Source: Bordetella petrii
GTDB lineage: Bacteria; Pseudomonadota; Gammaproteobacteria; Burkholderiales; Burkholderiaceae_B
Assembly (NCBI RefSeq): GCF_017356245.1
Contig: NZ_JAFMZZ010000001.1
Location: forward strand, 3,490,168-3,531,348
DNA length: 41,181 bases
Direction of reading: 5' to 3'
Both the position numbers and the translations under genes were made by a program. Below, piece after piece: positions 5,323 through 40,766 of the stretch; positions within the stretch are counted from its first letter, which is position 1; each line of letters opens with the position of its first letter. The notes under the pieces were generated by a model. It saw nothing but the letters and a program-made list of their open reading frames with translations, was not told the DNA's origin and did no database searches.

Positions 5323-6237
5323 ATGCTGCATTATCTTGGACGACGGGCGTCCTATAGCGTTATTTCCATACTGGGTCTGCTGACCCTGGTCTTCTTCCTG
5401 ACCCGCCTGACCGGCGACCCCTCCGCGCTGTACCTGCCGCTGGATTCCACACCCGAAGCGCGCGCGGCCTTTGCCCACCTGAACGGGCTCGACCAGCCCA
5501 TCTATATCCAGTTCTGGAATTACCTGGCCGATTTGCTGCGGCTGGATTTCGGCGAATCGATGCGGCAGCACCGCTCGGCCATGGAAGTGGCGCTGGAAGC
5601 TTTTCCGCAGACGCTGAAGCTGGCCTTCGTGGCCATGCTGCTGTCGCTGTCGCTGGCCATCGTGGTGGGCGCCCTGGCGGCCGCCCGGCCGCGCGGGCTG
5701 TTCGACCGCATCGCCACCGTGGTGTCGCTGGCCGGCGCCAGCGCGCCCGATTTCTGGGTGGCCATCGTGGCCATCCTGGTGTTTGCCGTGGGCATGGGCG
5801 TGCTGCCGACCTCGGGCACCGGCGGCTGGGAATTCTGGGTGATGCCGATCTTCGTGCTGATGCTGCGGCCGTTCGGCCTGCTGGTGCAGGTGGTGCGCGG
5901 CACCATGCTGTCGTCGCTGGCCTCGCCCTACATCAAGACCGCGCGCGCCAAGGGCCTGCCGCGCCGCGCGGTGGTGTTCGGCCACGCCCTGCGCAATTCG
6001 CTGCTGCCCGTCATTACCGTGGCCGGCGACCTGGCCACCGGCCTGGTCAACGGCGCGGTGATCGTCGAGTCGGTATTCGGCTGGCCGGGCATCGGCAAGC
6101 TGATGATCGATTCGATCATCCAGCGCGACTTCGCGGTCGTGCAATCGACGATCCTGGTCACCGCGACCGCGATCTTCATCCTGAACATTTTGATCGACCT
6201 GCTGTACGCGGTGCTCGATCCTCGCGTGCGGTACTGA
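5323..6237 (+). CDS. ABC transporter permease (DppB-like)
   Basis: A 304-residue inner-membrane permease with about six transmembrane segments. The N-terminal LGRRASYSVISILGLLTLVFFL is the usual first helix of the DppB group, and the GDPSALYLP loop follows as expected. The ATPase-contacting EAA loop is at about residues 200-228 (TARAKGLPRRAVVFGHALRN). The C-terminus LYAVLDPRVRY is characteristic of this family. It should form a heterodimeric channel with the next gene product, whose start lies only 2 bp after this stop codon, indicating translational coupling. Confidence 0.92.
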   Translation: MLHYLGRRASYSVISILGLLTLVFFLTRLTGDPSALYLPLDSTPEARAAFAHLNGLDQPIYIQFWNYLADLLRLDFGESMRQHRSAMEVALEAFPQTLKLAFVAMLLSLSLAIVVGALAAARPRGLFDRIATVVSLAGASAPDFWVAIVAILVFAVGMGVLPTSGTGGWEFWVMPIFVLMLRPFGLLVQVVRGTMLSSLASPYIKTARAKGLPRRAVVFGHALRNSLLPVITVAGDLATGLVNGAVIVESVFGWPGIGKLMIDSIIQRDFAVVQSTILVTATAIFILNILIDLLYAVLDPRVRY

Positions 6238-6239
6238 CC

Positions 6240-7169
6240 ATGTCTGCGATCTCCTCTTCTGTGCAAGCAGCGCCCGCGGCCCGGCCCGGGCGGGCCCGGG
6301 TGCTGCTCAACTACCTGAAGCGCGACCGGCTGGCGCTGGCCGCCGCCATTTTCCTGGCTCTGCTGGTGCTGGCCGCGCTGCTGGGCCCCTGGCTGATGGG
6401 CGATGCCGCCACCAAGCTGGGCCTGCGCCACCGCAACCTGGCGCCGTTCAACCTGGACGCCGGCTGGCTGTATGTGCTGGGCGCCGACACGCTGGGCCGG
6501 CCCATTCTGCCGCGCCTGGTGGTGGGCGCCAGCAATACCCTGGGCATCGCCGCGGCCGCGGTCTGCACCTCGATGCTGGTGGGCGGGCTGCTGGGGCTGG
6601 TGGCCGGCTATACCGAAAGCTGGTACAGCCATGTGATCCAGCGCGGCGCCGACATCATCATGAGCTTTCCGTCGCTGCTGCTGGCGCTGATCGTGCTGTA
6701 CACGCTGGGGCCCAGCGTCACCAACCTGGTGATCGTGCTGGCCATCACCCGCATGCCGGTGTACCTGCGCACCGCGCGCGCCGAAGTGCTGGAACTGCGC
6801 GAGCGCATGTTCGTCAGCGCGGCGCGTTCGATGGGGGCGAGTTCGGCGCGCATCGTGCTGCGCCACATCGCGCCGCTGGTGGTGCCCACGCTGATCACCA
6901 TTTCGGCCATCGACTTCGCCACCGTGATCCTGGCCGAATCGGCGCTGAGCTTCCTGGGCCTGGGCATCCAGCCGCCCGAGTTCACCTGGGGCGCGATGGT
7001 GGCCAACGGGCGCGGCTATCTTTCCACGGCCTGGTGGATCGCCTTCTGGCCCGGGCTGGCCATCATGCTGACCACGCTGTCGCTCAACATCCTGTCGAGC
7101 TGGGCCCGCACCGCGGCCGACCCGCAGCAGCGCTGGCGGCTGCAGAAACTGAAGAAGGCGGCGCGATGA
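6240..7169 (+). CDS. ABC transporter permease (DppC-like)
   Basis: A 309-residue partner permease. It has the OppC-type N-terminal helix (about residues 25-55, after LLNYLKRDRLAL), a periplasmic section with LGADTLGRPILPRLVVGA, and the EAA loop at about residues 186-216 (SAARSMGASSARIVLRHIAP). The typical LSFLGLGIQPPEFTWGAMV block follows at about 238-256. The stop codon overlaps the ATPase start by four bases (ATGA), so the genes are translationally coupled. Confidence 0.92.
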   Translation: MSAISSSVQAAPAARPGRARVLLNYLKRDRLALAAAIFLALLVLAALLGPWLMGDAATKLGLRHRNLAPFNLDAGWLYVLGADTLGRPILPRLVVGASNTLGIAAAAVCTSMLVGGLLGLVAGYTESWYSHVIQRGADIIMSFPSLLLALIVLYTLGPSVTNLVIVLAITRMPVYLRTARAEVLELRERMFVSAARSMGASSARIVLRHIAPLVVPTLITISAIDFATVILAESALSFLGLGIQPPEFTWGAMVANGRGYLSTAWWIAFWPGLAIMLTTLSLNILSSWARTAADPQQRWRLQKLKKAAR

Positions 7170-8836
7170 ATACCCAAGCAGACAAGCAGCCCATTCTGCG
7201 CATCGACGGGCTGACGGTGGACTTCCTGTCCGACGACGAGCCGGTGCGCGCGGTGGACAACGTGTCTTTCCATGTGCATCCCGGCGAGACGCTGGTCATT
7301 CTGGGCGAAAGCGGCTCGGGCAAGAGCGTCAGCACCAGCACGGTGATGGGGCTGGTGGATTGCCCGCCCGGCGACATCGTTCAGGGCAGCATTCTGTTCG
7401 AAGGCCAGGACCTGGCCCGCCTGGACGACGAGGCGCGGCGCCGCATCAACGGCTGCAAGATCGGCATGATCTTCCAGGACCCGCTGGCCTACCTGAACCC
7501 GGTGTACACGGTGGGGCGGCAGATCGCCGAGGTTTTCCAGTGCCATGGCGCCGCCGACGCCAGGCAGGCCCGCGCGCGCGCCATCGAACTGCTGGCGCGC
7601 GTGGGCATACGCGAGCCCGAACTGCGCGTCGATTTCTATCCGCACCAGTTCTCGGGCGGGCAGCGCCAGCGCGTGATGATCGCCATGGCCATCGCGCTGG
7701 AACCCGATGTGCTGATCGCCGACGAACCCACCACGGCCCTGGATGTCAGCGTGCAGGCGCAGATTCTCGACCTGCTGCGCGACCTGCAGCGCGAGCGCGG
7801 CATGGCGCTGATCATGATCACCCATGACCTGGAGGTGGCCGCGTCGATGGCCGACCGCGTGATTGTCATGAAGTCGGGAAAAATCGTCGAAGCGGGCGAC
7901 GCGCGCGAGGTCTTCACGAACCCCCGGCACGACTACACCCGCACGCTGACGGCCGCGCTGCCGCACGGCGACCAGGCCGATGTATCGAACCGCCGCTCGG
8001 GCGTGGTGGCCCAGGAGCCCGTGCTGCGCGTGGAGCACCTGGTCAAGGAATACCGGCTGATGTCCGGTGCCTTCGCCGGCAAGCGGGTGCTGCGCGCGGT
8101 GGACGACGTCAGCTTCGAGGTGTGCCGCGGCGAAACAGTGGGCATCGTGGGCGAATCGGGCTCGGGCAAATCCAGCGTGGCCCGCATGCTGCTCAGGCTG
8201 TTCGACGCGACCTCGGGCGCCGCGTATTACAACGGCGTGGACATTTTCCGGATGAACGAGCGGCAGATGCGGAAGTTCCGCCGCAAGGTGCAGATGGTGT
8301 TCCAGGACCCGTTCGGATCGATGAACCCGCGCATGACCGTGCACGACATCATCTCGGAGCCCTGGGCGATACATGGCGACATCCTGGCCAGGCCGCGCTG
8401 GCGCGACCGCGTGGCCGAACTGCTGGAACTGGTGGGCATGAAGCCGGAGCACGCGCCGCGCTATCCGCACCAGTTTTCGGGCGGCCAGCGGCAGCGCATC
8501 GCCATTGCCCGCGCGCTGGCCAGCGAGCCCGAACTGGTGGTGTGCGACGAGGCGGTGTCGGCGCTGGACGTGTCGATTCAGGCGCAGGTGATCGACCTGC
8601 TGGCTGACCTGCGCACGCGCCTGGGTCTGTCGTATGTGTTCATCACGCACGACCTGCCCATTGTGCGGCACTTCGCCGACCGCATCGTCGTGATGCAGCA
8701 GGGCAAGATCGTCGAGCAGGGGCCCACCTCGGCCATTTTCAACCAGCCCGGCCACGCGTACACCCGCAGCCTGCTGGCCGCCACGCTGCAGCCCAAGTGG
8801 CTGCGCGCCGACCAGACGCAGGCGGCGCCGGCATGA
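7166..8836 (+). CDS. Double ABC ATPase (DppD-DppF fusion type)
   Basis: A 556-residue cytoplasmic ATPase holding two complete nucleotide-binding domains, as in GsiA-type proteins. Domain 1 has Walker A GESGSGKS (47-54), signature SGGQRQR (from 163) and Walker B with D186-E187 in [10 protein letters not shown]. Domain 2 repeats these as GESGSGKS from 329, SGGQRQR from 438 and CDEAVSALD. Each half ends in the oligopeptide-type C-terminal region. The start at 7166 overlaps the permease stop and matches the family N-terminus; the frame is open further upstream inside the permease gene, but those residues are unrelated. It powers the importer encoded just before it. Both halves look catalytically intact. 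Confidence 0.93.
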
Positions 8837-9912
8837 CGCCCGATACGGAACCCACCATGCCTGATGCCCGCTACGCCCACGAGGCGCTGATTGAATTTGC
8901 GCAGCACTGCCTGCTGGCCATGGACGTCGACCCCTCCATCGCCGCCGTGGTGGCGCGGCGGGTGGTGGATGCCGACCTGTACGGCCACGCCACGCACGGC
9001 CTGGCGCTGCTGCCGCGCTACCTGAAAGAGATCGACGAAGGCGCCACCCAGCGCCGCGGCGAGATCCGGCGCGTGTCGGAAAAGGGCGCCTGCCTGCTGT
9101 GGGATGCCGGCATGCTGCCGGGCCACTGGGTGCTGCACCAGGCCATCCAGGCGGCCTTGCAGCGCGTGCCCGGCCAGGGCATGGTCAGCATCGCCGTGCG
9201 CCACAGCCAGCACATCGGCGCCCTGCAGGTCTACCTGCCCGACCTGACCGAGGCCGGCTACTTGTGCCTGCTGTGGGCCACCGATACCAAGGTGCGCTCC
9301 GTGGCGCCGTTCGGCGGGCTGGACGCGGTGCTGACCAGCGAGCCCATCGCCGCCGGCATTCCCACGCGCGGCACGCCCATCCTGATCGACACCACCACGT
9401 CGCTGACCAGCAACAGCTTCGTCAAGCAGGTGCAGGCGCGCGGCGAGCGGCTGCCCTGGCCGGCGCTGCTGAGCGCGCAGGGGCAGGTGACCGATGATCC
9501 GGGCGCCCTGGCGACCGATCCGCCGGGCACCATCCTGCCGCTGGGCGGCATGGATCATGGCTACAAGGGCTATGCCATGGCGATGCTGGTGGGCGCGATG
9601 TCGCTGGGCCTGTCCGGGCTGGGGCGCCTGTCGGGCGAGAAGGCCCAGGGTTTCCTGCTGCAGGTGATCGACCCGGACGCATTCGCGGGCCGCGACATCT
9701 TCCTGGACGAGATGCAGGCCCTGGCCGACGCCACGCGCGCAGCGCGCCCCATCGACCCGGCCCGGCCGGTGCGCGTGCCGGGCGACGCGGCGCTGGCCCG
9801 CGCCGCGCGCCAGCGCCGCGACGGGGTGAGCCTGGGCGCCGACATCCCGGCCGCGCTCGAGCCCTGGACCCGGCGGCTGGGCGTGCCGTTTCCGCCGGCG
9901 CTGCGGGGCTGA
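8833..9912 (+). CDS. Ldh2-family NAD(P)-dependent oxidoreductase (malate/lactate/diketogulonate type)
   Basis: A 359-residue member of the Ldh2/MDH2 family, which uses NAD(P)H to interconvert 2-hydroxy and 2-oxo acids (malate, sulfolactate, ureidoglycolate, 2,3-diketo-L-gulonate). The family's N-terminal active-site motif appears as GHATHG at residues 51-56, followed by LLPRYL. The C-terminal cofactor region includes LPLGGMDHGYKGYAMAMLV. The ATG at 8833 overlaps the ATPase stop by four bases and is the likely start; ATG at 8857 is an alternative giving 351 residues. It is coupled to an importer and sits with a sugar-acid dehydratase, so a sugar-acid or hydroxy-acid substrate is likely, but which one cannot be told. 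Confidence 0.85.
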   Translation: MTPDTEPTMPDARYAHEALIEFAQHCLLAMDVDPSIAAVVARRVVDADLYGHATHGLALLPRYLKEIDEGATQRRGEIRRVSEKGACLLWDAGMLPGHWVLHQAIQAALQRVPGQGMVSIAVRHSQHIGALQVYLPDLTEAGYLCLLWATDTKVRSVAPFGGLDAVLTSEPIAAGIPTRGTPILIDTTTSLTSNSFVKQVQARGERLPWPALLSAQGQVTDDPGALATDPPGTILPLGGMDHGYKGYAMAMLVGAMSLGLSGLGRLSGEKAQGFLLQVIDPDAFAGRDIFLDEMQALADATRAARPIDPARPVRVPGDAALARAARQRRDGVSLGADIPAALEPWTRRLGVPFPPALRG

Positions 9913-26546: not shown

Positions 26547-27713
26547 ATGAGGTTCCGTCGTTTTTGCGCCGCTGTGGCCGCCTGCGCGGCGGCGGGCGCC
26601 GCCATGGCCGCGCAGGCCGATGAGCGGCAGGCCCGGATCCGCCGCGTGGTGGATGCCGCCGTCGAACCGGTGATGCGGCAATACGGCATACCCGGCATGG
26701 CGGTGGGCATCGTGGCCGGGGACGCATCCCTGGTGCTGAACTACGGCGTGCAATCGCTGCAGACCGGCCGGCCGGTGGCGGCCGACACGCTGTTCGAAAT
26801 CGGCTCGGTCAGCAAGACATTCACGGCCACGCTGGCTGCCTGGGCGCAGGCGCGCAACCGGCTGTCGCTGTCCGATTCCATCGGCCGGCGCCTGCCCGAA
26901 CTGCGGGGCACCGAGTATGGCGGGGTCGGCCTGCTGCACCTGGCCACGCATACCGCGGGCGGCCTGCCGCTGCAGGTGCCCGACGGCATCCACGACCAGG
27001 CGCAGCTGATGGATTACTTCAGGGCCTGGCATGCCACGTATCCGGCGGGCACCTATCGCACCTATACCAATCCGGGCATCGGCACGCTGGGCTTGGCGGC
27101 CGCGCGCAGCCTGGGGCAGGATTTCACCGCGCTGGCCGAAGGCCAGCTGTTTCCGGCGCTGGGCATGGCCGACACCTGGCTGGATGTGCCCGCCGCCCGC
27201 ATGGCGTCATATGCGCAGGGTTACACGAAAGACGGCCGGCCGATCCGGCTGGCGCCCGGCGTGCTGTGGCGCGAGGCGTACGGCGTGAAGTCCACGGCGG
27301 CCGACATGGTGCGCTTCATGCAGGCCAGCATGGGCATGCGGGCGCTGGATCCGGCACTGCGGCGCGCCATCATGGATACCCACGCCGGCTACTTCCAGGC
27401 CGGGCCCATGACGCAGGCCCTGGTCTGGGAACAGTATCCCTATCCGGTCAGCCTGCAGGCGCTGCTGGACGGCAATTCGGCCGCGCTGACCTTCGAGCCC
27501 ACGCCGGTGGCCGGCATCACGCCGCCGCAGCCGGCCCGGGCCGACGCGTGGATCAACAAGACAGGCTCGACCAACGGTTTCGGCGCCTATATCGCTTTTG
27601 TGCCGCAGCGGCGCCTGGGCGTGGTGCTGCTGGCCAACAGGAACTTTCCGGTCGAGGCCCGCGTGCGCGCCGCCTACGGCATCGCCATGGCGCTCGACCG
27701 GCCCATGCCGTAA
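26547..27713 (+). CDS. Class C beta-lactamase (AmpC type)
   Basis: A 388-residue serine hydrolase with a signal peptide (residues 1-23, cleavage near MAA-QA), so it acts in the periplasm. All class C active-site motifs are intact: SVSK at 87-90 with nucleophile Ser87, YTN at 173-175 and KTG at 338-340 (NKTGSTNGFGAY). HTAGGLPLQVP and WEQYPYP are further AmpC hallmarks, and the length matches the family. GGAG precedes the ATG. No ampR gene is divergent from it; the upstream neighbour is a propeller gene in the same direction, so the usual inducible arrangement is absent. The activity is expected to be cephalosporin-directed; spectrum cannot be deduced. Confidence 0.92.
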   Translation: MRFRRFCAAVAACAAAGAAMAAQADERQARIRRVVDAAVEPVMRQYGIPGMAVGIVAGDASLVLNYGVQSLQTGRPVAADTLFEIGSVSKTFTATLAAWAQARNRLSLSDSIGRRLPELRGTEYGGVGLLHLATHTAGGLPLQVPDGIHDQAQLMDYFRAWHATYPAGTYRTYTNPGIGTLGLAAARSLGQDFTALAEGQLFPALGMADTWLDVPAARMASYAQGYTKDGRPIRLAPGVLWREAYGVKSTAADMVRFMQASMGMRALDPALRRAIMDTHAGYFQAGPMTQALVWEQYPYPVSLQALLDGNSAALTFEPTPVAGITPPQPARADAWINKTGSTNGFGAYIAFVPQRRLGVVLLANRNFPVEARVRAAYGIAMALDRPMP

Positions 27714-27723
27714 GGCCCGCGCG

Positions 27724-28353
27724 TCAGTGCTTGCGCCCGCTCTTTTTGGCGCGGGCGGCCGGCTTGGCGGCCAGGCCGCCGTTGTTGCTGAGCTGGTCCA
27801 CCCACGACAGGGCGTCCAGATACGACAGGAACTGGTGCAGGTAGCCCGGCGACTGCTGGCGCATCAGCGACAGGGCCCGGTGCACCAGGTGGTTGGAATT
27901 GAGCGGGCCGGCATTCTCGTGCACCTGCTCTTGCGACTGCCGCAGCTGCCGGTCGGTGCTGAGCCGGGCCCAGGTGGCCTGGAAATAGTCCAGCAGGTCC
28001 AGTTCCGGGTACTGGCCGCGCCGGCGCGCGCGGGCATCGGCGCCGGCGCCGGCATGAGCCGGCGCGTCTGGCGCGGCGCCGGTTTCGATGTAGTCCAGCA
28101 GCGCGGCCAGTCCGGCCGGCGCGGCGGGTTGCGGCGCGGGCTCGCCGGCCGCGCCGGCGGCCCGTGCCTCATATTGCCGGACCAGTTCGGCCAGCCGCGC
28201 GTCCAGCACGCGGCGCGCCTCGCCGTCATGGCGGGCGGCGCGCCCGGCCAGCGCGGCGATCACATTGAAGCGCAGCGGGTCGGCGCGATCGGCGCCGCGC
28301 GCGCGCCACGCGTCGAGCGTGGCCTGGATGTCGAGGACGTGGCTGTCAGCCAC
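27724..28353 (-). CDS. DUF2894 protein, last gene of the MotAB-like operon
   Basis: A 209-residue cytoplasmic protein. The GTG at 28353 is chosen as start (VADSHVLDIQATLDAWRARG matches the family N-terminus); it overlaps the OmpA-gene stop by 8 bases. Family features are LRFNVIAALAGRAARHDGEARRVLD near the N-terminus and ELDLLDYFQATWARLSTDRQLRQS, then NSNHLVHRALSLM and SPGYLHQFLSYLDALSWV. A basic Lys/Arg tail closes it. The middle (about 70-115) is Ala/Pro-rich and likely flexible. No function is known to me; constant association with the membrane pair upstream suggests a cytoplasmic partner. Confidence 0.82.
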   Translation of the reverse strand: MADSHVLDIQATLDAWRARGADRADPLRFNVIAALAGRAARHDGEARRVLDARLAELVRQYEARAAGAAGEPAPQPAAPAGLAALLDYIETGAAPDAPAHAGAGADARARRRGQYPELDLLDYFQATWARLSTDRQLRQSQEQVHENAGPLNSNHLVHRALSLMRQQSPGYLHQFLSYLDALSWVDQLSNNGGLAAKPAARAKKSGRKH

Positions 28354-28993
28354 GAGCGGGCACCGCTTCTTTGGCCGGACGCGCCACCGGCACGATTTCC
28401 ACGCGCCGGTTGCTGGCCCGCCCTTCGGCGCTGTCGTTCGAGGCCACCGGCTGCTCGGCGCCGAACGCGGCCGCAAACACCGACGCGGGCGCGATGCCCT
28501 GCTCGATCAGGGCGCGGGTAACCGTCAGGGCGCGCTGGGCGGACAAGTCCCAGTTGTCGGCAAAGCGGCGGTTGTTGCCGTGCACCGGCTGGTTGTCGGT
28601 AAAGCCGCTGACCATCAGCACTTCGTCGCGCGTCTGCAGGTAGGCCGACAGCGGCCCCACCAGGCTCTTGAGCACGTCCAGGCCTTCGGGCTGCAGTTCG
28701 TCGGAATTCAGGGCGAACAGCACGCTGCCGCTGATGCCGATGCGGCCGTCCACCAGCGTGACCCGGCCGGCGGCCAAAGGCCCCGCCAGGGCCTGCTCCA
28801 GTTCGATGCGCCGCTGGGTTTCTTCCTGCCGCTGCTTCACTTCGGACTCCAGCCGGGCCGACAGTTCGAGCTGCACGCCGATCACGCTGACCAGTATCAG
28901 CACGAACGCGCCCAGCAGCACCGACATCAGGTCGCCAAAAACCGCCCAGGCCGGGGCGCTGGGCTCTACACCGGCGTCGATGTCGTCTCTCAT
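28346..28993 (-). CDS. MotB-like OmpA-family protein
   Basis: A 215-residue protein with one membrane helix (about residues 17-40) and a periplasmic OmpA-type peptidoglycan-binding domain (about 85-203). The helix begins FGDLMSVLLGAF; Asp21 sits where MotB and ZorB carry the ion-carrying aspartate just inside the membrane. The OmpA domain shows SGFTDNQP (D133), NWDLSAQRA (147-155) and NRRVEIV (196-201). It is short like ZorB, with a plug-like linker of about 40 residues between helix and domain. Its start overlaps the DUF802 gene stop by four bases, so the two products are probably made in a fixed ratio as stator-like subunits. Confidence 0.88.
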   Translation of the reverse strand: MRDDIDAGVEPSAPAWAVFGDLMSVLLGAFVLILVSVIGVQLELSARLESEVKQRQEETQRRIELEQALAGPLAAGRVTLVDGRIGISGSVLFALNSDELQPEGLDVLKSLVGPLSAYLQTRDEVLMVSGFTDNQPVHGNNRRFADNWDLSAQRALTVTRALIEQGIAPASVFAAAFGAEQPVASNDSAEGRASNRRVEIVPVARPAKEAVPARG

Positions 28994-31185
28994 GCCGTTT
29001 CGCTGTCCGTGGCGGCCTGCTGGCCCGCCAGCTGCTGCAGGTCTTCCAGGATCTGCTTCTGCGACATGATGCTCAGGTCGACCACTTCGCGTGCCTGCGC
29101 CACGTAGTAGGCCAGCTGCTCATCGCTGCGCGCCATGGACTTGTCCAGCGCGGCCTCGATGCGCTGCAGGTGGTCGACCAGCTTGTCGCTGGACTGCCCG
29201 AATACCTGCACGGCGGCGCCGAAGGCTTCGCCCAGGCTGGCGACTTCGGCGGCGCTGCCGGTAACCTGCGCGGCCACGCCGCCCAGCTTGCCGGTCTCGG
29301 TTTCGACCTGGGTGGTGAATTGCGCGCCGACGCGCTCGACCTGGTCCGTGAACTGCGTGCCGACGCGCTCGGCTTGTTCGGTGAACTGGGTGCCGACGCG
29401 GTCGACCTGCTCGGTGAACTGGGCGCCGACCCGTTCGAGCAGGCCGGCCGACGTGGCGATCAGTTCGTCGACGGCGGTGCGCTGTTGCGACGAAGCGTGG
29501 TTCACGGCATCGAGCAGGGTGCCCAGCGTTTCCATCAGGCGGCTGCGCTCGTCCAGCATGGCGTTGTCGCGCGCCATGCTGTCGGACAGCTTCTGGCGCA
29601 GTTCGGCGATGACTTCGGCGGCGGCCTTGGGCGCTTCGGCGGCCGTTTGCACCAGCTGCGCCACTTCGGCGATGGTGCCGCGGGCATGGGCCTGGGTCTG
29701 CGCCGAGATGTCCTGCGCGGTTTGCGCCAGGGTGTCGCAGATCTGCTGCTGCCCGGCGGCGGCCTGCACGGCGGCCTGTTCCCACTGCTGGCGCAGCGTG
29801 CCGGCAATGTCGCCCAGCGAGGCGTGCCAGGCCGCCAGGCGCTGTTCGTCGCGGGCCGCCAGTTCGGCCTGCAGGTCCGCGTGCGATTGGCCGACGGCGC
29901 GCAGCAGCGCGGCCGAATGCTGTTCCAGGCCGGCCGTGGCCGCCGCCAGCGCGCGCTGGTGCTCGCCGGCCAGCCGGGCGCCGGTTTGCTCTTGCTGCGC
30001 CAGCGCGGCGGTCCAGGCGGCCGCCATGCCGGCCGTCGTGGCGTCCAGGCGCGTGCCCACGCCTTCCAGCAGGCCGGCGGAGCGTTCTTCGAAGGTGTGC
30101 GTGAATTGCTGCAGCGACGCGCCCAGGTTTTGCGCCAGCGCATCGCTGGCGCGCTGGTGCTGGGCAAGCGCCGAGGTCCAGGTGTCGGCCACGGTGGTGG
30201 TGGTGGCCTCGAAGCGGCCCGACAGGCCGTCGAGCTGCTGGCGCACGGCCTGCGCCAGCGTGTCCTGCCAGGCAGAGGTCTCGCGCGCCAGGCCGGCCAG
30301 CGTGGCCTGCACGGCCGGCTGGATGGCCGCGCCGGCGGCCGCGGCGCTGTCGGCCACGCTCTGCTTCAGCGCCTGTTCCATGGCGGTGGCCAGGCGCGCG
30401 TAGGCGGCATCCGCCTTGCCATGGAAGGCGTCCTGGCTGGCCGCCAGCCGTTCGTTCAGGGCCTGGCTTTGCTGCTCGATGGCGGCCATCATGGCCTGCA
30501 GGCGGTCTGCCAGCACCGGCATGGCGTCGGCCTGCCGCTGCAGCAGCTGGAAAGCCTGCTCGCGCTGGTGCATGGGCGAGTAAACGCGCAGCGTGGTGGC
30601 GATTTGGGTATCGAGCTGCTGCACGGCCTCGACACGTTCGCGGCGGACCAGCGCCGCCAGCAGGCCCAGCGCGGCCGAGGTGGCCACACCCGCCACCGAG
30701 GTGCCGAAGGCGAAGCCCAGCCCCTTGACCGGCGCGGCCAGCGACGCCCGGATGGCGTGCAGGTCGATGGCGCTTTCCAGGGCGCTGCCGGTGCCGCGCA
30801 AAGTGGCGACCATGCCCAGAAAAGTGCCCAGCATGCCCAGCAGCACTAGCAGGCCCACCAGGTAAGGCGTCAGCGACGGCCCGGGAAAAGCGGCGCGCTC
30901 GCCCTCGACGCGCAGGCGCGCGGTGTTGCGCAGGCCGGCGGGCAGCCGGTCGAGCCAGGCGGCCAGGCTGGGCGGCGTTTCGGCCGGGCCGGCCAGGGCG
31001 CGCGCCAGGGCGGCGGTGCGCTGCTGGTACTGCAGCAATTCGATGGCGCCGGCCAGGTAGAAGGCGCCGATCAGCACGGTAACCGCCAGCGCCAGGGGGT
31101 TCGATCCCACATAGCCGGCGCCGATCCAGCCCGCGACGGACAGGCCTGCCAGGAAAACAACAAAAGCAACGAGATATCGGGTCAT
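28990..31185 (-). CDS. DUF802 MotA/ExbB-like membrane protein with long coiled-coil tail
   Basis: A 731-residue protein with four predicted membrane helices (about 3-24, 30-51, 106-128, 152-180). Helices 3 and 4 carry the MotA/TolQ/ExbB pattern: LGMLGTFLGM at 116-125 and GFAFGTSVAGVATSAALGLL at 157-176. Residues from about 185 to 720 are a very long Ala/Gln/Glu-rich helical tail without further membrane segments, predicted to be a cytoplasmic coiled coil. It contains four 11-residue repeats VGxQFTxQVxR. The design, a proton-channel MotA-type core with a long intracellular tail, matches ZorA of the Zorya defence system in outline. No experimental function is known to me for DUF802. Confidence 0.85.
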   Translation of the reverse strand: MTRYLVAFVVFLAGLSVAGWIGAGYVGSNPLALAVTVLIGAFYLAGAIELLQYQQRTAALARALAGPAETPPSLAAWLDRLPAGLRNTARLRVEGERAAFPGPSLTPYLVGLLVLLGMLGTFLGMVATLRGTGSALESAIDLHAIRASLAAPVKGLGFAFGTSVAGVATSAALGLLAALVRRERVEAVQQLDTQIATTLRVYSPMHQREQAFQLLQRQADAMPVLADRLQAMMAAIEQQSQALNERLAASQDAFHGKADAAYARLATAMEQALKQSVADSAAAAGAAIQPAVQATLAGLARETSAWQDTLAQAVRQQLDGLSGRFEATTTTVADTWTSALAQHQRASDALAQNLGASLQQFTHTFEERSAGLLEGVGTRLDATTAGMAAAWTAALAQQEQTGARLAGEHQRALAAATAGLEQHSAALLRAVGQSHADLQAELAARDEQRLAAWHASLGDIAGTLRQQWEQAAVQAAAGQQQICDTLAQTAQDISAQTQAHARGTIAEVAQLVQTAAEAPKAAAEVIAELRQKLSDSMARDNAMLDERSRLMETLGTLLDAVNHASSQQRTAVDELIATSAGLLERVGAQFTEQVDRVGTQFTEQAERVGTQFTDQVERVGAQFTTQVETETGKLGGVAAQVTGSAAEVASLGEAFGAAVQVFGQSSDKLVDHLQRIEAALDKSMARSDEQLAYYVAQAREVVDLSIMSQKQILEDLQQLAGQQAATDSETA
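29299..29430 (-). repeat. Four tandem 33-bp repeats in the DUF802 tail
   Basis: Four in-frame 33-bp units encode VGAQFTEQVDR, VGTQFTEQAER, VGTQFTDQVER and VGAQFTTQVET. An 11-residue period is the hendecad that gives straight or slightly right-handed coiled coils. Confidence 0.85.
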
Positions 31186-31195
31186 GGGTGTCAGG

Positions 31196-31942
31196 TCAGT
31201 GGGCGCGCAGGGCGGCGAGCAGGCCCTCGATCGGCTGTAAACGGATGTCCAGTTCGGCCCGCAGGACGCTGCGCATGTCGGCGCGGAAAGCGGCCAGCCA
31301 GGGCGCGGATGCGGCGGGGGCGGGCGGGGGCGTTTCGGCGTTTTGCGCGCCGGGCTCCTGCGCGTCTTGCGCCGCCTGGCGCAGGCGCTCGAAGTGCCCC
31401 TCGAGCATGCCCGGTATGGTGCCCAGCAGGCGCCGCTCGTGCAGGCTCAGGGAACGTTCCATAATGGCATCCACCATGGCCAGGCGGGCCTTGGCGGGCG
31501 CCTGGGCCGCCAGCAGGGCGCGCAGGCGCCCGCGTGTCTTGGCGATGCTGGTTTCCATGTTCTGCTGTATGGCCAGATAGCGCTGGCGGTAGGTGGCATA
31601 GGCGGGTTCGGCATCCGCGGGGGCGGCCTGGGCGGCGCCCGGCCCGCGCGGACGGGCCGCCGTGAACGGCCGGTCGTCGGCAATGGCCTGGGCCAGGGCG
31701 CCGCGCATGCGCTCGACCTCGCGCGCCTCGGCGCTGCCTTCGGCCCGGGCGCCCGGCGCCACCGCGGGCGGGCCGCCATCGAGCACGGCGGACAGCGCAA
31801 TGGCGTCAGTCCAGCCCAGCCACAGGCTGAGCCGGTCGGCAAGCGATTGCCGGGATTCGGGAATATCGGCGTCCGTCAGGCGGGCCAGCAAGCGTATGAG
31901 CGTGGGGCCGCTGACACCGGTGCGCCGGGGGGCTTGGACCAT
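31196..31942 (-). CDS. DUF3348 protein, first gene of the MotAB-like operon
   Basis: A 248-residue protein beginning MVQAPRRTGVSGPTLIRLLA, the conserved opening of the DUF3348 family; the ATG at 31942 is used for that reason. LADRLSLWLGWTDAIALSAVLDG follows at about residues 34-56. The middle and C-terminal half are helical and charged (YRQRYLAIQQNMETSIAKTRGRLRALL), with a Pro/Ala linker at about 198-208. No signal peptide or membrane segment is seen. It ends 10 bp before the DUF802 gene, so all four genes (DUF3348, DUF802, OmpA, DUF2894) form one transcription unit. Divergent from an Rrf2 regulator gene. Function unknown. Confidence 0.83.
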   Translation of the reverse strand: MVQAPRRTGVSGPTLIRLLARLTDADIPESRQSLADRLSLWLGWTDAIALSAVLDGGPPAVAPGARAEGSAEAREVERMRGALAQAIADDRPFTAARPRGPGAAQAAPADAEPAYATYRQRYLAIQQNMETSIAKTRGRLRALLAAQAPAKARLAMVDAIMERSLSLHERRLLGTIPGMLEGHFERLRQAAQDAQEPGAQNAETPPPAPAASAPWLAAFRADMRSVLRAELDIRLQPIEGLLAALRAH

Positions 31943-32076: not shown

Positions 32077-32565
32077 ATGATTCTCAAAAGTCAGGTCGAG
32101 TGGGCGCTGCACAGCTGCGCCATCCTGGCGGGCCTGCCGCCGGGGCGGTACCTTTCCACCAAGGCCCTGGCCGAGCTGCACGGCGTGCCGAAAGAATATC
32201 TGTCGAAGGCGCTGCAGTCGCTGTCGCAGGCCGGGCTGGTCGAGACCACGCTGGGGCCCAGCGGCGGCTACCGGCTGGCCAGGCCGGGTTCGGAAATCAG
32301 TTTCCTGGACATCGTCGAGGCCGTGGAAGGGCGGGCCAGCACCTTCGCCTGCAACAACATCCGCGTCAACAATCCGTGCCGGCCGCAGGGGCAATGCGAC
32401 AGCAAGCCCTGCGCCATCGCACGCGTCATGTGGCGCGCCGACGAGGCCTGGCGCAATGCGCTGCGCGAAGTCACGGTGGCCGACGTGATCGACACCCTGT
32501 CCGGCGAAGTGCCGCCCGCCTTGTGGCAGAGCACGTACGAATGGGTGCTGAGCCGGGCCGGCTGA
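32077..32565 (+). CDS. Rrf2-family transcriptional regulator with four-cysteine cluster
   Basis: A 162-residue Rrf2 protein. The winged helix spans about residues 1-80 (STKALAELHGVPKEYLSKALQSLSQAGLVET, then GPSGGYRLARP). C92, C101, C107 and C112 lie in the loop where IscR, NsrR and relatives bind an iron-sulfur cluster, so sensing of oxidative, nitrosative or redox stress by an Fe-S cluster is likely. The start at 32077 fits the family N-terminus (MILKSQVEWALH); the ribosome site is weak. Repeated GGATA-N5-TATCC motifs before this gene and before the convergent AhpD-like gene suggest that it represses both. Confidence 0.87.
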   Translation: MILKSQVEWALHSCAILAGLPPGRYLSTKALAELHGVPKEYLSKALQSLSQAGLVETTLGPSGGYRLARPGSEISFLDIVEAVEGRASTFACNNIRVNNPCRPQGQCDSKPCAIARVMWRADEAWRNALREVTVADVIDTLSGEVPPALWQSTYEWVLSRAG

Positions 32566-32664: not shown

Positions 32665-33144
32665 TCAGCTCAGGCCGGCCTTGTCCAGGCCGAAGGCCTT
32701 GTCGGCCGAGCCGGGTTCGTTGCGGAACGCCACGTTGATGCGGTTCCAGGCATTGATGGCCATGACCAGGTAGGTGAGGTCGGTGATTTCTTTTTCCGAG
32801 AACTCGCTGCGCGCGTGTTCATAAATGGCGTCGGGCACGCCGCCGTCGGGCAGGCGGGTCAGCACTTCGGCCCAGGCCAGCGCGGCGCGTTCGCGCGCGC
32901 TGAAAAGGGGCGACTCGCGCCAGATGGCGATGTGGTGCAGCCGCAATTCGCCTTCACCGTGGATCTTGGCCTGCTTGATGTGCATGTCCAGGCAGAAGGC
33001 GCAGCCGTTCATCTGCGAGATGCGGATCTGGATCAGGTCGTCGATTTTCTGTTCGATGGTGCCGCCGTGCAGGGCGGTGCTGAACTGCACGAATTTCTTG
33101 AAGAACTCGGGGGACTGCTCGGTATAGTCCAAACGCTGGCTCAT
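32665..33144 (-). CDS. AhpD-like alkylhydroperoxidase (carboxymuconolactone decarboxylase family)
   Basis: A 159-residue all-helical protein. It carries the AhpD peroxidase motif as NGCAFCLDMH: C48-x-x-C51 with H55 three residues on. ERAALAWAEVLTRLP and FSEKEITDLTYLVMAINAWNRINVAF are characteristic of the family. Members use the cysteine pair to reduce peroxides or to pass electrons to a partner. The promoter region holds two GGATA-N5-TATCC-like sites immediately upstream of the start, so control by the nearby Rrf2 protein is likely. No ahpC or other peroxiredoxin gene is adjacent. Confidence 0.88.
   Translation of the reverse strand: MSQRLDYTEQSPEFFKKFVQFSTALHGGTIEQKIDDLIQIRISQMNGCAFCLDMHIKQAKIHGEGELRLHHIAIWRESPLFSARERAALAWAEVLTRLPDGGVPDAIYEHARSEFSEKEITDLTYLVMAINAWNRINVAFRNEPGSADKAFGLDKAGLS

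Positions 33145-38414: not shown

Positions 38415-38418
<4 letters not shown>
38011..38418 (+). CDS. Hsp20/alpha-crystallin small heat-shock protein
   Basis: A 135-residue small chaperone. The alpha-crystallin domain is about residues 45-130 (PPVDVIETPAAVMVYVALPG ... RFRRRIPLPLHALEP ... ELVDGCLVLTLNKL), with the final strand near the A-x-x-x-nGvL position as DGCLVL. The N-terminal arm is short. The protein ends six residues or so after LTLN, without the IxI/V C-terminal tail that most relatives use to assemble oligomers. The ATG at 38011 follows AGAGGG. Its stop overlaps the lon start by four bases (ATGA), so both are made together, presumably on heat shock. Confidence 0.85.

Positions 38419-40766
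<2,348 letters not shown>

Follow-up and report, generated by a model that had tools for sequence, protein, structure and literature searches.

A predicted Zorya type III operon of Bordetella petrii with a ZorA tail of modular length

The type III form of Zorya was defined in 2021 on the basis of 6,401 loci, each with a pair of zor genes flanked by genes for DUF3348 and DUF2894 proteins, and a type III system of Stenotrophomonas nitritireducens lowered the plaquing of at least one phage in Escherichia coli BL21-AI (PMC8565338, available text). The gene pair is printed as 'zorBC' in the sentence that gives this arrangement, but appears as ZorA and ZorB in the Discussion of the same paper. For types I and II, nucleases are presented as the effectors that ZorAB recruits, and one scheme has been suggested for all subtypes (Mariano et al., PMC11890865, in the parts available to us). 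Here, we describe an operon of Bordetella petrii that lies at positions 27724-31942 of a 41,181-nucleotide stretch of contig NZ_JAFMZZ010000001.1 (the whole stretch is referred to as the window, and all coordinates are positions within it). Judged by its genes, the operon has the full set of four Zorya type III components, and we consider it probable that these provide an ion-driven motor turning a long cytoplasmic rod, with a likely anti-phage role. This grading applies to identity and motor taken jointly; the last mechanistic step, namely how infection is blocked, is on its own much less certain. The operon is an instance of an already described system type with a known four-gene composition, whereas neither a modular tail, nor fixation by genus, nor a length analysis of type III was found in the available text of the published type III accounts.

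Components of the operon

The four coupled genes lie on the minus strand in the order DUF3348-zorA-zorB-DUF2894. The gene for the DUF3348 protein (248 residues; 31196..31942; PF11828, 3e-88; PADLOC model PDLC00656, 6e-95) is followed after 10 base pairs (bp) by zorA (28990..31185), which encodes ZorA3, a 731-residue DUF802 protein with a MotA-like membrane motor and a cytoplasmic tail of approximately 540 residues (PDLC00650, 1223.6 bits; the Pfam family DUF802, PF05650, matched in two stretches at 1.5e-29). ZorB3 (215 residues; 28346..28993; PDLC00651, 2e-112; PF00691, 1e-17) has a single N-terminal helix and an OmpA domain; its gene overlaps zorA by four bases (ATGA). The gene for the DUF2894 protein (209 residues; 27724..28353; PF11445, 4e-54; PDLC00652, 1.7e-74) has a GTG start inside the end of zorB, with an overlap of eight bases. 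The ZorA motifs LGMLGTFLGM and GTSVAGVATSAALG and the Asp21 of ZorB in FGDLM are all present, and four hydrophobic segments can be picked out by eye in ZorA. The gene coupling, the motor motifs, Asp21 and the four-base overlap were each confirmed where a sequence-only reading of the same DNA had placed them.

All four proteins matched Zorya type III models of PADLOC, with E values from 0 to 2e-74. ZorA scored 952 to 1224 bits against the type III models PDLC00647-00650 versus at most 53 bits against the type I and II models, and its match to the type II ZorA2 profile of NCBIfam was sub-threshold (36 bits, cut-off 100). At E<=1 the DUF3348 and DUF2894 proteins matched only their own type III PADLOC models, and ZorC, ZorD and ZorE were not among the PADLOC matches of the operon. 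ZorB also matched NCBIfam NF006547 (374 bits, cut-off 194), a family that carries the title 'hypothetical protein'. The names of the two partners are swapped between sources, as the available text of PMC8565338 and PMC11890865 has DUF3348 as ZorF and DUF2894 as ZorG, and PADLOC-DB 2.0 has DUF2894 as ZorF3 and DUF3348 as ZorG3.

The sequence-only reading had favoured an envelope machine driven by protons that stands apart from the Zorya types and has no name of its own, with DUF3348 and DUF2894 standing in for the effectors. What speaks for such a machine is the lack of the recognised effectors ZorC, ZorD and ZorE, and that part of the reading holds. The absence of Zorya partners does not, since type III has DUF3348 and DUF2894 as its named partners (PMC8565338 and PMC11890865, available text); by their PADLOC labels and the published definition of the subtype, the supposed replacements are themselves type III components. 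Because all four proteins match type III models, and the subtype is defined with both partners and one of its systems has been shown to lower phage plaquing (PMC8565338, available text), a machine outside the Zorya types is refuted as stated, and we consider it practically excluded.

A profile of ZorA residues 1-230, made from 17 relatives and compared with all PDB chains, had a single match below E = 1, namely 8VVN_C, the ZorA of Shewanella Zorya (4e-7; next match E = 1), and no MotA chain matched it at E<=10. The top PDB matches of the first 110 residues of ZorB were also Zorya chains (8VVN_B, 0.006; 8QYD_F, 0.04), with Asp21 aligned opposite residue 24 of 8VVN_B, the D24 named for the ZorB of 8VVN in the available text of PMC11890865. 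Full-length ZorB matched MotB structures (3KHN, 6YSL and others) better than Zorya chains, via the OmpA-type, predicted peptidoglycan-binding domain at residues 92-196 (28406..28720; PF00691). Of the structures solved so far, Zorya chains are the closest to the N-termini of ZorA and ZorB, and the matches to 8VVN_C and 8VVN_B bear out the earlier view, in which a motor of the ZorAB type has a domain of the peptidoglycan-binding type and a long tail in the cytoplasm.

The motor is strongly conserved among relatives, which we aligned as 157 ZorB and 150 ZorA rows (some genomes are present in both of the underlying locus sets). The predicted ion-carrying Asp21 of ZorB (codon 28931..28933) is Asp in 157/157 rows, and the OmpA domain keeps L150 in 156 and both R154 and R197 in all 157. 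In ZorA, T121, T162 and S163 are invariant in 150/150 rows, and motor helices 3-4 (residues 107-180; 30646..30867) show approximately 90% majority identity. The ratio of nonsynonymous to synonymous substitution rates was 0.07-0.28 in all 12 gene-by-genome comparisons, made across three genomes, which like the invariant Asp21 and the joint occurrence of the four genes speaks against a chance arrangement.

The modular tail of ZorA

The tail of ZorA is modular, with a variable stretch set between a conserved motor and a conserved tip. Across 146 proteins, majority identity was 88-91% in the motor (residues 91-180), 50-73% in the stalk (181-450) and 76-89% in the distal tip, which comprises a first part at residues 507-581 (29443..29667; 79-82%) and a second at residues 632-706 (29068..29292; 76-89%); over the final 25 residues (707-731), identity drops to 67%. 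The stretch of variable length sits between the stalk and the distal tip, and the long tail as a whole is predicted to form a rod.

ZorA length ranged from 601 to 1229 residues in these 146 proteins (138 of them unique, from a set of 150), and ZorB frames were of 208-229 residues in 63/78 cases. The length counts leave out loci L056 and L058 (contig ends), L093 (decayed), and L209, L213 and L264 (a ZorA frame that is short or ends before zorB), and likewise the eight named loci that contig ends interrupt. Tandem Repeats Finder reported 149 arrays in 92/146 zorA genes, and the period was divisible by three in 148 of them. Thirty-five arrays start in the motor region and are mostly two-copy 21-bp repeats; the other 114 start in the tail, in 75/146 genes, with leading periods of 261 bp (36 arrays, 29 genes), 33 bp (24 arrays, 13 genes), 21 bp (14 arrays) and 153 bp (10 arrays, 9 genes).

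The leading period corresponds to a module of 87 residues, and 59/138 unique ZorA lengths fall within 3 residues of 698+87k (8% expected), a periodicity reached by 0/2000 smoothed resamples. When proteins of 770 residues or fewer were dropped, 39/100 still lay on this grid; so did 27/29 genes with a 261-bp array, versus 33/117 of the others. As the grid was picked after the lengths and repeats had been viewed, and the proteins are related, these figures are a description and not a clean test. Close relatives show single steps: the ZorB proteins of genomes G101 and G120 differ by 2.8% and their ZorA by exactly 87 residues, and the ZorA pairs of G118/G135 and G133/G156 differ by 22 residues, or two 11-residue units. 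Among other close pairs the difference is 4, 17, 31, 43, 55, 62, 73 or 122 residues, and 22/60 nearest pairs have no length difference. Steps of 11, 51, 80 and 87 residues amount, by arithmetic, to nearly whole helical turns (3.63-3.67 residues per turn), so that a helical bundle would stay in phase.

The ZorA of the window has a length of 698+33 residues and carries four in-frame 33-bp repeats encoding 11-residue units (about residues 583-628; 29303..29438; 4.1 copies and 83% matches by Tandem Repeats Finder), together with a single local copy of the 87-residue module (residues 438-524; 29614..29874) that occurs in tandem in longer relatives; this copy was located by visual comparison with the repeat unit of locus L118. 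Natural length variants that share the same motor and tip, many of them on the 698+87k grid, make the roles of tail length and tip directly addressable. ZorA length also correlates with genome size (rho 0.58 over 57 family genomes, uncorrected for relatedness).

Distribution, partner proteins and mode of action

The four genes occur together in 77/80 whole-genome loci (of the exceptions, two are at contig ends and one is decayed) and in 72/80 named loci, the remaining 8 being cut by contig ends, and the set recurs across Burkholderiales and other Gammaproteobacteria. DUF3348 is present in 9/9 genomes of the genus of the window, 72/200 of its family and 24/397 of a phylum sample; 23 of these 24 score above the family cut-off, and all 23 belong to the order or class of the window (Burkholderiales and Gammaproteobacteria, going by the named loci). 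ZorB3 (E<1e-80) was found in the same 72/200 family genomes, when the lists were compared by eye. Among 173 genomes of 21 genera with at least three sampled members, genus explains 88% of operon presence (eta squared 0.88) versus 18% for HsdR (12% in shuffles). Five of the nine carrying genera are fixed (9/9, 17/17, 6/6, 5/5 and 4/4), whereas all 17 of the 17 HsdR-carrying genera are mixed, and other sampled genera have no operon at all (0/16, 0/14, 0/10 and 0/10). A first HsdR count gave 59 genomes, including one at 4.6e-20, and its repeat at 1e-20 gave 58 and an eta squared of 0.18; with a lax cut-off (1e-3, 102 genomes) genus explained 20% and 18/20 carrying genera were mixed.

The pattern typical of mobile defence, with patchy presence, small mobile elements and defence neighbours, was not seen: the 27 plasmid carriers are all of at least 366 kilobases (kb), no relative of ZorB3 was found in viral contigs, and none of the 10 window proteins scanned was a defence neighbour. 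The defence-island linkage that the sequence-only reading had thought worth surveying is in that sense missing from the window, and the operon behaves as a resident and not as a rapidly gained and lost element. It is nevertheless not a core machine, because whole sampled genera are without it, one copy has decayed, its neighbourhood differs even within the genus of the window, and its tree rejects the rpoB topology (approximately unbiased test, p 8.4e-06). Operon and rpoB distances are correlated within the family (Spearman 0.46; 0/499 permutations as high), and the overall picture is one in which the operon was transferred long ago and has been retained since. Fixation at the level of the genus suggests that some phage-defence systems persist without being rapidly gained and lost.

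Two individual cases are of note. In the operon tree, genome G095 (genus g42) groups with G017 (genus g10) and not with its own genus, which suggests a transfer between genera. At locus L093 (genome G190, 5761-9032), a decayed type III copy was found in which DUF3348 was not detected and a truncated ZorB runs into the end of DUF2894; relatives have intact copies.

In the AlphaFold2 model of the DUF3348 protein there are eight helices and no strands (mean predicted local distance difference test score, pLDDT, 77.6; predicted template modelling score, pTM, 0.71). Foldseek retrieved nothing from the PDB at E<=0.001 for this model or for that of DUF2894, neither protein had an enzyme or nuclease domain by Pfam, PADLOC or NCBIfam, and the 5 kb around 77 loci from 28 genera yielded no conserved fifth gene. 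DUF2894 ends in a basic tail of 25 residues (27727..27801), whose net charge is +5 in the window protein and, among the relatives, at least +4 in 145/157 rows (median +5, range +1 to +9). Since neither a nuclease domain nor a conserved fifth gene was found, a scheme of the 'recruit a nuclease' kind would be left in type III without a visible agent, and sits badly with these genes.

By analogy with types I and II (PMC11890865, available text), five ZorA proteins would surround two ZorB, the OmpA domains would engage peptidoglycan once the envelope is disturbed by a phage, and ions flowing past Asp21 would turn the ZorA rod. DUF3348 and DUF2894 may be helical adaptors docked on the conserved ZorA tip, with DUF2894 reaching nucleic acid via its basic tail, and infection would be blocked by capture of the DNA or by a borrowed host nuclease, not by a nuclease of the system itself. 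How many 87-residue modules are present, together with smaller steps, would determine how long the rod is, and any length above a sufficient minimum would do; this would account for a variable length between two conserved ends. The proposal is supported by the conservation of the tail tip, which comes close to that of the motor. In its full form, as a nuclease-free Zorya that is resident in whole genera and has a rotary rod adjustable by 87-residue coiled-coil modules and 11-residue steps, with a tip whose two adaptors stop phage DNA uncut, it is a tentative suggestion. As type III shows no recognisable nuclease, it offers a natural test of whether motor and rod can act without one.

Several observations weigh against this reading. 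The position that by motif spacing would correspond to His186 of type I and His141 of type II, which is needed for peptidoglycan binding and defence (PMC11890865, available text), is Phe or Tyr in 156/157 ZorB rows, followed by Thr or Ala and then D133. Phage protection by type III is reported for the S. nitritireducens system (in the available text), and for the Bordetella operon it is predicted from the genes. Near-fixation in genera is unusual for a defence system and fits a housekeeping role, and 79/138 unique ZorA proteins have lengths that do not fit the 87-residue grid. As to the partners, the all-helical model of DUF2894 is weak (pLDDT 67.7, pTM 0.35), and adaptor docking, DNA binding and the absence of nuclease activity are all steps that we infer. 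A novel all-helical nuclease may also exist, given the invariant acidic residues D158, E169 and E230 of DUF3348 and the near-invariant H158 and D180 of DUF2894.

Those residues are an argument for a nuclease hidden in DUF3348 or DUF2894 that would cut DNA after recruitment by ZorAB, as in types I and II. The single scheme suggested for all subtypes would favour it, and the DUF2894 basic tail could bind DNA; against it, both partners are predicted to be all-helical without strands, the positions of DUF2894 that never vary include no acidic, His or Lys residue, and no enzyme family was matched, so that we regard it as unlikely. The lack of a recognisable nuclease in the operon would also fit an ion leak, in which phage contact opens ZorAB and the membrane potential collapses, DUF3348 and DUF2894 serving only as a gate, an idea for which Payne et al. 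can be cited (available text). Such a leak would not need a distal tip that is conserved at such a distance from the membrane, and the published model of types I and II has nucleases as effectors (PMC11890865, available text); this explanation, too, seems doubtful to us.

The distribution bears on another explanation, in which the operon is a housekeeping envelope machine for force transfer or wall sensing and protection from phage in E. coli arises as a by-product of overexpression. The five fixed genera, the large size of all plasmid carriers, and the lack of viral-contig relatives and of defence proteins among the 10 scanned neighbours are in its favour. Yet the genera without the operon, the decayed copy, the neighbourhoods that vary within a genus and the conflict with the rpoB tree mark it as dispensable and transferred, unlike a core machine, and we consider a housekeeping role quite improbable. 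For the rotary type III system that we prefer, three features taken together make its action directly testable, namely a tail built of modules, no recognisable nuclease and fixation by genus.

Neighbouring genes and relation to known systems

A class C beta-lactamase gene (26547-27713, plus strand; NF033085, 517.7 bits, cut-off 415) runs towards the operon and ends 10 bp away from it; AmpC adjoins the operon in just 4/60 loci checked. Upstream of DUF3348 lie a divergent gene for an Rrf2-family regulator (32077-32565, plus strand) and an AhpD/CMD-family gene (32665-33144, minus strand). Because Rrf2 also stands beside the operon in only 4/60 loci, it is probably not a dedicated regulator of it. 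Further away, a 783-residue protein (38415-40766, plus strand) has weak BrxL and AAA-type PADLOC matches, and is probably an ordinary Lon-like protease.

With the MotAB flagellar stator, the operon has in common a MotB-type OmpA domain (3KHN, 5.6e-17), a membrane helix with an Asp, and MotA-like helices 3-4, but it adds the long ZorA tail and two extra partners, and none of the 9 window proteins searched against Pfam was flagellar. Zorya type II (ZorABE; PDB 8VVI) likewise has a ZorAB motor with a tail; in the place of its ZorE nickase there are here two predicted helical proteins. The likeness to type I (ZorABCD; PDB 8VVN) extends to the ZorA motor core, a ZorB with an aligned Asp and an OmpA domain, and the long ZorA tail, whereas the operon is without ZorC or ZorD and type III ZorB has Phe or Tyr at the position that, by motif, His186 would occupy. 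Within types I and II, the components are said to keep well conserved sizes (PMC11890865, available text), in contrast to the 601-1229 residues spanned by type III ZorA. With Zorya type III itself, all four components are held in common, and no tested feature excludes membership.

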